A stretch of 64,000 bases of DNA, from positions 365,357 through 429,356 of the forward strand of contig NZ_LACC01000002.1 in the NCBI RefSeq assembly GCF_000967965.1, read 5' to 3'. The translations under genes were made by a program, and so were the position numbers. Under the pieces are notes generated by a model. It was not told the origin of the DNA. It made no database searches and worked only from the letters and a program-made list of their open reading frames with translations. This document shows, piece by piece, positions 2 through 37,469 of this stretch (its first letter is position 1; every line of letters starts with the position of its first letter). Source of the DNA: Pseudomonas fluorescens (GTDB lineage Bacteria > Pseudomonadota > Gammaproteobacteria > Pseudomonadales > Pseudomonadaceae).

Positions 2-79
2 ATGTATGAGGCCAAACGCAGCGGGAACAATCAGTATCGGCTGGGCACCGAGAGCGTTGCGCGGGCGCATAGCGAATAG
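2..79 (+). CDS. C-terminal end of a GGDEF-domain protein (partial)
   Basis: Only the last 25 codons lie in the window, ending at TAG 77-79; the gene continues off the left edge. The peptide starts MYEAKRSGNNQYRLG, which matches the final helix of diguanylate cyclase GGDEF domains (family pattern ALYxAKRxGRN). The catalytic GGDEF motif itself is outside the window, so activity cannot be judged. It is inferred to make or sense cyclic di-GMP. Confidence 0.72.
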   Translation: MYEAKRSGNNQYRLGTESVARAHSE

Positions 80-35417: not shown

Positions 35418-36242
35418 ATGCGCCCCAAGGAACTGAAAGTCTGGACCACCGGTGTCGCCCACCTGCTCGACCTGCCTGCCGGGCATGGGCGGCTGTCGGG
35501 GTTGAGCCATTGGCTTCGGCAAATCTGCCCGGTCGATCATTTCGTGTTGTTTGTCTACGAAGGCAATCACCGGCCACTGGCGTTGTTCGATACCTTCTCG
35601 GCGGACAAGCGGGCGGTGTATGTCGACGACTATCAGTGCGGGCCTTACCTGCTCGACCCGTTCTACCTGGCGTGCACACGCGGGCAGGCGCCGGGGCTGT
35701 GGCGTCTGCGCCAGTTCGCCCCCGACCACTTCTACCTCGGCGAGTACTTCCTGACCTATTACCAGCAGACCGGACTGGCCGAGGAAGTGGCGTTCTTCGT
35801 CGACCTCGGCGGTGGTGCCATGGCGGTGTTGTCGTTGATGCGATCGAGCGCCAGCTGTGCGTTCAGCCGGGATGAAATGCAATTGGTCGAGTGCGCGCAA
35901 GCGGTGGTCGAGCAGGTCATCAATGAGGCCTGGCGTTTGCGTCAGGCTCAGGAGCCGCGACCGGCGAAAGACCTGGACTTCAAGATCCGCGAAGCCTTCG
36001 ACCATTTCGGCGCGCACATCCTCACCGGCCGCGAGCAGGAAATCGTTCAACTGTTACTGCGCGGCCACTCCAGCGCCTCGGTGGCCGAACAACTGAACAT
36101 CAGCCCCGGCACGGTGAAGATTCACCGCAAGAACATCTACGCCAAGCTGGGGATTGGGAGCCAGTCGGAGTTGCTGGGGTTGTTTATTCGGGAGTTGACG
36201 GAAGATCCGTTGCAGGCTTCCGGCCTCAAGCTGCAAGCCTGA
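35418..36242 (+). CDS. LuxR-family transcriptional regulator
   Basis: A 274-residue protein with a GAF-like/PAS-like sensor part (residues 20-175) and a C-terminal LuxR HTH (LTGREQEIVQLLLRGHSSASVAEQLNISPGTVKIHRKNIYAKLGIGSQSEL, residues 200-250). No receiver domain or autoinducer synthase is present, so this is a LuxR solo. Neighbours at both sides are set off by gaps; the polyamine-type ABC operon begins about 1.4 kb downstream and is a possible target. Confidence 0.88.
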   Translation: MRPKELKVWTTGVAHLLDLPAGHGRLSGLSHWLRQICPVDHFVLFVYEGNHRPLALFDTFSADKRAVYVDDYQCGPYLLDPFYLACTRGQAPGLWRLRQFAPDHFYLGEYFLTYYQQTGLAEEVAFFVDLGGGAMAVLSLMRSSASCAFSRDEMQLVECAQAVVEQVINEAWRLRQAQEPRPAKDLDFKIREAFDHFGAHILTGREQEIVQLLLRGHSSASVAEQLNISPGTVKIHRKNIYAKLGIGSQSELLGLFIRELTEDPLQASGLKLQA

Positions 36243-36263: not shown

Positions 36264-36358
36264 CCCTGTGGGAGCGGACTTGCCCGCGATAGCGGCAACC
36301 CATTCAACATTGATGTGTCTGACATACCGCCATCGCGGGCAAGCCCGCTCCCACAGGT
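36264..36358. repeat. REP pair
   Basis: GTGGGAGCGGACTTGCCCGCGA (36269-36290) and, inverted, TCGCGGGCAAGCCCGCTCCCAC (36332-36353). The two differ at one core base (GGACTT versus GGGCTT). Confidence 0.9.
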
Positions 36359-36382: not shown

Positions 36383-36742
36383 TCAGGGCGGATCAAGCTG
36401 ATCCAGCGCCCGGTTCACCGCCAGTTCACCCAGCATGATCACCTGCGCAATCCCCAACAGCGCATTGCGGCTCGTCCCCTCCAGATGATCCACCAGATCG
36501 TTGGCCATGACATTGGCCGACGCCAGCGACTCACACGCGTGCACCAGCAAGGTTTCGGCACTGAGTTCGGGATTGACGATGAACATCGTGCCGGGTTTGC
36601 GCGGGGTGGCCATGATTGCAGGGCCGGGGTTTAGGTAATGATCGAGGGCGCGCTCGGCGGCTTCGTGGAGCTTGTTTGAATCGAGGCTTTCGTACGGGGA
36701 TGCGGGATCGGTTTCCGGCGGGTTGGGTGTGACTTTGAACAT
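36383..36742 (-). CDS. DUF6124 family protein
   Basis: A 119-residue protein with the DUF6124 (formerly DUF3077) core: LLVHACESLASANVMANDLVDHLEGTSRNALLGIAQVIMLGELAVNRALD. It has no signal peptide and its role is unknown; the family occurs in several copies in Pseudomonas. The ribosome site AAGGAG (36755-36750 on the minus strand) is spaced 7 nt from the ATG but is paired with an upstream CTCCTT, suggesting translational control by its leader. Confidence 0.85.
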   Translation of the reverse strand: MFKVTPNPPETDPASPYESLDSNKLHEAAERALDHYLNPGPAIMATPRKPGTMFIVNPELSAETLLVHACESLASANVMANDLVDHLEGTSRNALLGIAQVIMLGELAVNRALDQLDPP

Positions 36743-36945
36743 AGTGAAACTCCTTACATCGTAAAAGGAGCCATCACTCTCACGCTACCAAACGAAGGGT
36801 GGTGGCCATACGCAGGTTGGTAGACCGGGATGCAAGGAGACCGGCGCGCCCAAAGGCGCCCTGTGCATGGCCACCATAAAGCAGAGTAAAAAAACGCTGC
36901 AGATGATGACGCTTTGCACCTCACATAGCCGGGCTACCAAACCCG
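36743..36945 (-). promoter_or_regulatory. Highly structured leader of the DUF6124 gene
   Basis: On the minus strand this 200-nt leader has a 9-bp stem (GGTGGCCAT 36875-36867 with ATGGCCACC 36809-36801), an inner GGCGC/GCGCC hairpin, two identical GTTTGGTAGC copies (36942-36933 and 36793-36784) that compete for one CTACCAA (36823-36817), and a final hairpin that hides AAGGAG. Competing pairings plus a hidden ribosome site are the architecture of a regulatory RNA. The direction and function are inferred. Confidence 0.5.
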
Positions 36946-37232
36946 ATCACTGTTGTTATTCAGCGACCGACAAACGATAAAACCCAGCCCCAAGGCGCAC
37001 AAGCCGGCGGATTCTGGCGTACCTGTAGGCAACGACGCAAGGCGTTGTAGCTTTCATGAAGTAACGCTTACAGCTATTAAACACGCATGTTTAAACCATG
37101 CTGAATGACTGGATTCAATCGACCTGCCAGCGTTGAAATCTTTCTATAGATTCAGGAAATATCCCACGCGCTTTTAGGGTTGGCCGTCGGAAGTGCGAGG
37201 TTTAATTTGGCAGCTCCAGGCAAATACAAGAG
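36946..37232. other. Intergenic region upstream of antitoxin remnant
   Basis: About 290 nt, more A+T-rich than its surroundings, with no gene I can support. It should contain the promoter for the DUF6124 leader (minus) and for the gene at 37233 (plus), but I could not assign -35/-10 boxes. Confidence 0.4.
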
Positions 37233-37469
37233 ATGGCGAAGGAGACTAAATTGGCACCTCTAAACCAGCAAAAAAATACAGTCCGGTATGTAAAAATCCT
37301 GAAATACGCCATCAATGTGCTTGGCAATCAGCGGTTGGCTAAGGACTGGCTAAAGAGACCTTGCAAGGGTCTGGAAGGCAACATCCCGCTGGAACTGATC
37401 CGCAACTCGCATGGCTTCCAGAAGGTTGAGAATTATCTGGCCCGGATTGAACACGGGGTTTATCAATGA
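37233..37469 (+). CDS. Truncated Xre/MbcA/ParS-type antitoxin
   Basis: A 78-residue protein whose residues 25-78 (NVLGNQRLAKDWLKRP, then IPLELIRNSHGFQKVENYLARIEHG) are the C-terminal toxin-binding domain (DUF2384) of MbcA/ParS/Xre antitoxins that partner RES toxins. The N-terminal HTH usually found in this family (total about 130-150 residues) is missing. The expected toxin start, an ATGA overlap with the stop, exists but opens a frame of only eight codons. It is probably an orphan remnant; expression is uncertain because the GAG upstream is too close to the ATG. Confidence 0.65.
   Translation: MAKETKLAPLNQQKNTVRYVKILKYAINVLGNQRLAKDWLKRPCKGLEGNIPLELIRNSHGFQKVENYLARIEHGVYQ

Follow-up and report, generated by a model that had tools for sequence, protein, structure and literature searches.

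According to a 2010 survey, c4 antisense RNA is listed for Proteobacteria and phages (PMC2864571), and a report on Acinetobacter baumannii states that it has been predicted in Pseudomonadales, among others (PMC5320573). The account of P1 in the latter has C4 processed from a longer transcript, with the b' loop covering the ribosome site of the target and the a' loop giving specificity, and it describes the Group 1 C4-like sRNAs of A. baumannii as 21 chromosomal members that vary in the a' loop (PMC5320573). The C4 system of phages P1 and P7 (immI) is organized as a three-stem RNA with a' and b' loops, flanked upstream by a1 and b1 sites and downstream by a2 and b2 sites, the latter pair where the next gene has its ribosome site. 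The DUF6124 leader analysed here has the same organization, with b1 as a candidate site.

This leader lies in a 64-kb stretch of Pseudomonas fluorescens DNA, hereafter the window, and had originally been predicted to hold a regulatory RNA controlling DUF6124, with the design of a riboswitch or thermosensor. The comparison with Rfam proposed along with that prediction returned C4 antisense RNA. When the window was scanned with the Rfam covariance models, RF01695 was matched over its full length (1-87) at 85.2 bits (cut-off 45), and the only other match over its cut-off was a tRNA; no riboswitch or thermometer family exceeded its cut-off in the 64-kb window. A permissive scan of 751 bases of leader gave a match to c4-a1b1 (RF03163) of 43.1 bits, below the cut-off of 46.7 (E 1.7e-9), and a weak match to isrK (RF01394) in the same stretch, of 28.1 bits, below the cut-off of 50. 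The predicted fold of the 261-nt leader had an energy of -100.2 kcal/mol (z -3.62), equalled by 1 of 200 shuffles, and that of the 87-nt C4 core an energy of -45.7 kcal/mol (z -5.73), equalled by none of 200. Both the fold energies and the RF01695 score show that the leader signal exceeds chance. Judged by its sequence, the element is a member of the C4 antisense RNA family and not a riboswitch, and DUF6124 comes next here instead of icd/ant, the C4 target in the P1/P7 immI operon. The features of the unit are listed in Table 1. An open reading frame running through the C4 RNA (36785-36940, minus strand) gave a weak match to Phage_ASH (21 bits, cut-off 26), and this family may in part be translated C4-like RNA.

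Table 1. Observed and predicted features of the C4 unit in the window.
Feature	Position	Strand	Basis or remark
Predicted -35 box TTGTGC	36997..37002	-	Box and spacing as in 61/75 anchored units
Predicted -10 box TATCGT	36974..36979	-	17 nt spacer; start predicted near 36967
a1b1-like region	36926..36980	-	RF03163 match below cut-off
a1 site TTGGTAG, hairpin loop	36934..36940	-	Exact 7-nt complement of a'; copy 1 of the GTTTGGTAGC repeat
Candidate b1 site GGTGCAAAG	36912..36920	-	Partial complement of b', 5 nt exact; weakest of the four pairings
C4 antisense RNA	36795..36881	-	RF01695 match and fold z -5.73
C4 b' loop CTCCTTGCATC	36829..36839	-	Complements the DUF6124 ribosome site, 11/11 pairs, one G-U
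C4 a' loop CTACCAA	36817..36823	-	Exact complement of a1 and a2, 7/7 each
a2 target site TTGGTAG	36785..36791	-	Copy 2 of the GTTTGGTAGC repeat
CTCCTT, local partner hiding the ribosome site	36765..36770	-	SD pairing probability
b2 target site GATGTAAGGAG, includes the ribosome site	36750..36760	-	Pairs with b'
DUF6124 gene, 119 aa, predicted C4 target	36383..36742	-	PF19619, 90.5 bits, cut-off 27

The elements on which the original prediction was built were all found in the letters, i.e., AAGGAG (36755-36750), CTCCTT (36770-36765), CTACCAA (36823-36817), two GTTTGGTAGC copies (36942-36933 and 36793-36784), whose cores are the C4 a1 and a2 sites, and a 9-bp GGTGGCCAT/ATGGCCACC stem, which encloses a G+C hairpin and forms part of the outer C4 helix. 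The doubled GTTTGGTAG with its single CTACCAA corresponds to the a1/a2/a' layout of C4 systems, in which a single RNA has its target in two copies, and not to an aptamer. These elements had been taken to give mutually exclusive folds, and both a1 and a2 are indeed complementary to CTACCAA; however, when the whole leader was folded, the predicted structure of minimum energy had the a' loop unpaired and C4 folded alone, so that a single RNA is not predicted to form long-range a1-a' or a2-a' helices by itself. The ribosome site is hidden, as had been proposed, with an SD pairing probability of 1.00 versus a mean of 0.56 when the upstream part was shuffled. A pairing that had been overlooked, longer than CTCCTT/AAGGAG, is the one between the C4 b' loop and the ribosome site. 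Collectively, the claim of a candidate regulatory RNA that would control DUF6124 gained support from these comparisons.

We consider it probable that this C4-family RNA, with one loop complementary to the ribosome site of the DUF6124 message and the other to a stretch just before it, is cut from the leader and represses DUF6124 translation in trans. The proposal draws on the family match, the complementarity among a', a1 and a2 and between b' and b2, the co-variation across units, and the conserved promoter-like box, all present in the sequences. Transcription of the leader would begin near 36967, and C4 would then be processed out of the transcript; in P1, this step is carried out by RNase P. 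By analogy with P1, the released RNA would repress translation through pairing of a' with a2 and of b' with b2; the upstream a1b1 copy would compete for C4 and, by binding it, relieve the repression. Since a local hairpin already hides the ribosome site, C4 is perhaps dispensable for repression.

To assess loop-target pairing beyond the window, we compared the loops of each C4 unit with its own flanks and with the flanks of all other units, in the window's own genome (G000; 26 C4 matches, 25 over cut-off) and in the richest sampled genome (G049; 55 matches, 52 over cut-off). An exact complement of at least 7 nt at the unit's own site was found for a'-a1 in 26/26 units of G000 and 48/55 of G049, for a'-a2 in 22/26 and 47/55, for b'-b2 in 17/26 and 35/55, and for b'-b1 in 8/26 and 24/55. 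Random partners were expected to give 0.7 to 3.3 units, and the observed counts were reached in none of 10000 permutations. The duplex-energy z values of own versus other partners ranged from -7.3 to -16.0. Within the window unit, the exact run was 5 nt for b'-b1 and 6 nt for b'-b2, the latter because a G-U pair interrupts the 11. We counted 17 distinct a' 7-mers among the 26 units and 31 among the 55, while the b' loops were all different among units. When the energies of a2 and b2 were combined, the own target was ranked first in only 15/26 and 17/55 units. This low rate speaks against exclusive specificity and makes cross-talk likely between C4 units of one genome, as far as predicted duplexes indicate. 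Each C4 stands beside its own matched target, so both loop and target sequences can be read directly, and the evolution of C4 specificity and cross-talk becomes testable within one cell.

The absence of compensatory changes had been named as an outcome that would speak against the original prediction, but such changes were present, and both the stems and the loop-target pairs co-vary. In the outer helix (helix P1 of the RNA), 94.1% of the cells of the alignment were paired, versus 83.8% after column shuffling (maximum 85.3), and 123 of 1258 cells had a two-sided change (74 distinct rows from 81 units). Only this helix was used, as the counts for the other two (P3, 55.5% paired versus 57.6% shuffled; P2, 81.4% versus 56.0%) are unreliable, with length variants out of register and identical rows merged. 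The single other genome with a C4 unit at the orthologous site (locus L187) has a sites identical to those of the window. Its b' and b2 differ from the window at 9/11 and 8/11 bases, respectively, yet 11/11 b'-b2 pairs are retained; when the partners were swapped between window and L187, 3 and 4 of 11 pairs formed in the same register, and 6 and 7 in the best register. Between these two loci, the outer helix has one two-sided and three one-sided changes. No ATG was found at the expected gene start in L187, and this counts against present function there.

The units were also compared for a promoter-like motif, TTGnnn-15..19-TAnnnT, whose second box begins 11 to 13 nt ahead of the first hairpin. 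Anchoring succeeded for 75 of the 81 units (6 failed), and 61 of the 75 had this motif, versus 0.9% of random flank positions and 1.4% of shuffles. A transcription start downstream of 36784 had been named as an outcome that would refute the original prediction. Such a start is not indicated, as the box of the window unit places the predicted start near 36967, but a generic sigma-70 scan of the window unit reported no promoter. In G049, the predicted hiding of the ribosome site was somewhat stronger than in the control. For the 51 of 55 units scored (4 were unscored), the mean SD pairing probability was 0.67 versus 0.54 in the control, with 41/51 units above their own control. In G000, 20/26 units were likewise above their own control, and no mean is given, since L021, a broken unit, lacks a ribosome site at that place.

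The unit stands beside a luxR gene, and orthologs of the latter were found in 21 other genomes of 199 searched; one (L206, 51% identity) was left out of the site comparison, and 20 were examined. At 17 of these 20 sites, luxR adjoins the ABC-transporter gene with no C4 between them, and the gap between aligned blocks measures 40 to 189 bp in these 17 genomes versus 1,325 in the window. The remaining three are L187, with C4, L186, cut by a contig end, and L188, which is divergent; one of the 17 (L189) carries a C4 unit on the opposite side of luxR. Gene order thus indicates that the window unit is an accessory insertion in its lineage. The LuxR-type neighbour (35418-36242) was considered as a functional partner, and this is unsupported, because the C4 unit was inserted beside luxR in the window lineage. 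Broken units were also found, L021 lacking target and start and L024 having half a domain.

Side features of the accessory stretch and links to phages were recorded as well. Downstream of the DUF6124 gene (36265-36357) there is a REP-like repeat in inverted arrangement, GTGGGAGCGGGCTTGCCCGCGAT with its reverse, and similar repeats occur near units L004, L010 and others. In the accessory stretch of the C4 unit, a 78-aa open reading frame (37233-37469, plus strand) scored 54.1 bits, over a cut-off of 24.5, for the C-terminal toxin-binding domain of Xre/MbcA/ParS antitoxins; it may be left over from an antitoxin. A protein search for a phage origin, run on 50,697 phage records, gave a single match, next to prtR in a tailocin record, and no plasmid record was matched. 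In this record (L207, EU982300.1), C4 (452-538, minus strand) separates prtR from a DUF6124-like gene, where a tailocin cluster of P. fluorescens has its edge. In IMG/VR, 55 loci were found, 12 of which were scanned, and C4 was found in 12/12; some of these loci may be host flanks of prophages.

Other readings of the leader were weighed against repression in trans by C4. The one closest to the mutually exclusive folds of the original prediction is a cis switch of the IsrK type, where the readthrough message would fold into active and inactive forms, a1 and a2 would compete for a', and a short a1b1 RNA would activate; we regard it as unlikely. The Salmonella system is described as a short IsrK that activates the readthrough message, with a processed RNA downstream (PMC4825925), and both the weak isrK match and the hidden ribosome site of the window are in line with this. 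So is the terminator-like stem with a T-run found between b1 and C4 in 7/26 and 11/55 units, versus about 6.5% of shuffles. However, no such stem was scored between b1 and C4 in the window unit, the isrK score of 28.1 is below the 50 bits of the cut-off, and the predicted leader fold has a' unpaired with C4 self-folded. The antisense RNA could also stop transcription before DUF6124 instead of blocking translation, in the manner of P4 CI, and the CI RNA is likewise described as processed, between the complementary copies seqA and seqC (PMC4825925). This is very unlikely in our judgement, as b' pairs on the ribosome site itself, which fits a translation block; early termination could still follow from such a block.

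That the unit is a decaying phage-derived relic without present function is quite unlikely. The accessory insertion, broken units such as L021 and L024, and the missing start ATG in L187 fit this idea, but the window unit is intact in its stems and loops, in its target sites and promoter-like box, and in its reading frame, and b' and b2 have changed together with respect to the sole ortholog at the site. Least likely of all, and hardly credible, is the ligand-sensing riboswitch or RNA thermometer that had been read from the competing helices and the hidden ribosome site. Both of these exist, but the Rfam match is an antisense RNA, none of the riboswitch or thermometer families reaches its cut-off anywhere in the window, and the loops vary strongly among units, together with their targets, unlike a constant ligand pocket.

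Next, the distribution of C4 units and of the genes behind them was analyzed. C4, a phage immunity RNA, was detected in 54 of 59 sampled Pseudomonas genomes, own genome included (53 over cut-off), with up to 55 matches in one. Across the class, where at most 15 candidates were scored per genome, it was detected in 18/274 genomes, own included, with at most 6 matches per genome outside Pseudomonas. DUF6124 was present in 47/59 Pseudomonas genomes and, class-wide (369 genomes, 272 genera sampled), in the own genome only. Of the DUF6124 matches, 18/20 in G000 and 35/41 in G049 had a C4 within 700 nt upstream (a single G000 match is below cut-off), and in these two tabulated genomes C4 mostly precedes DUF6124. 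The other eight units of G000 precede DUF3077 (three), QslA-family (one) and Bro-N (one) genes, and small genes with no Pfam match (three).

Bro-N antirepressor-like genes were found 3' of C4 in L026 (G000) and in L061 and L090 (G049). The L090 protein has antirepressor family matches in PHROGs, and it starts with MxKxTPNPPE, common to many DUF6124 proteins, which suggests that the leader was recombined together with the first codons. QslA-family genes (PF18226) lay about 400 nt 3' of C4 in 8 of the 12 matches in the 59 genomes (L117, L121, L122, L123 and L125-L128). In a second set of 31 loci, 20 were scanned and 19 of these had C4 about 400 nt upstream (L208-L224, L226 and L227); one genome probably belongs to both sets. 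The family is named for a quorum-sensing anti-activator, and the C4 unit ahead of its genes provides a link to it. An 89-aa open reading frame overlaps the start of the QslA-family gene in L117, and a radC RNA (RF01754) was observed downstream of the C4-QslA units L121, L122 and L127, the own genome's unit among them. In five DUF3077 units (L003, L004, L058, L060, L101) and one QslA unit (L006), a short leader reading frame has its end on the start of the main gene or beside it, and none was found in the DUF3077 unit L001. By analogy, these frames recall the coupled phage operons icd-ant and orf45-anrP.

Since Bro-N antirepressor-like and QslA-family genes occupy the same place, the C4-controlled proteins are likely small regulators, and a hint that DUF6124 may be one as well comes from the genes beside its homologues, such as an HTH/S24 repressor gene (L056) and prtR (L207). 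In the AlphaFold2 model of DUF6124 (pLDDT 77.1, pTM 0.49), the N-terminus is of low confidence and a helical hairpin is predicted. No structural match to it was found in the PDB at E <= 0.001, and no function is claimed from the structure. The comparison of DUF6124 and DUF3077 with hhalign (E 1.8e-4, probability 48%), together with one protein over both Pfam cut-offs, is only suggestive of homology between these sequence families; the small cargo of the L008/L025 type had no convincing profile match to either. One DUF6124 homologue of G000 has no C4 (L056) and is divergent to an HTH/S24 repressor gene. A PrrF sRNA (157.9 bits; L056, 115-262, minus strand) lies directly downstream of it.

A broader proposal, which we offer tentatively and hold to be possible rather than probable, is that Pseudomonas chromosomes carry dispersed phage-derived C4 cassettes, dozens per genome. 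Each would encode an antisense RNA with a distinct pairing sequence and control one of several exchangeable small regulators (DUF6124, DUF3077, QslA-family anti-activators and Bro-N antirepressors). Such cassettes would silence incoming phage messages with the same sequence, and a rival a1b1 RNA that titrates C4 would free the anti-repressor or anti-activator of the cell itself.

A search of the open-licence literature found no paper on DUF6124, and for DUF3077 it found a mutation list; no description of a link between C4 and DUF6124 was found in the open-licence literature on C4, DUF6124 or DUF3077. The expectation that a switch controlling DUF6124 would be new thus stands, by the literature found, for the gene link; the RNA family itself and its expansion in Acinetobacter were already known. 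The analysis supplies a likely mode of control for DUF6124, a family for which no paper was found.

The window unit, while sharing the immI organization described above, differs from P1/P7 C4 in that the next gene is DUF6124 rather than icd/ant, that it is chromosomal and one of 26 units, and that processing and repression are predicted here. It is like IsrK/orf45-anrP of the Salmonella prophage Gifsy-1 in having one promoter (predicted here), a short a1b1-like RNA region and then a target region before the regulated gene, as that system is described (PMC4825925), and unlike it in reaching 28.1 of 50 bits with the isrK model and in lacking the terminator-like stem. The P4 phage CI RNA is similarly one processed antisense RNA (processing is predicted here) between two complementary target copies (PMC4825925), and it acts by transcription termination on replication genes. 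The likeness to A. baumannii Group 1 lies in the many chromosomal C4-like RNAs per genome and the variable a' loop. There, expression and processing are backed by RNA-seq and the targets are left open in the account given (PMC5320573), whereas the Pseudomonas units, as predicted from sequence, each have a matched target ahead of their own gene.
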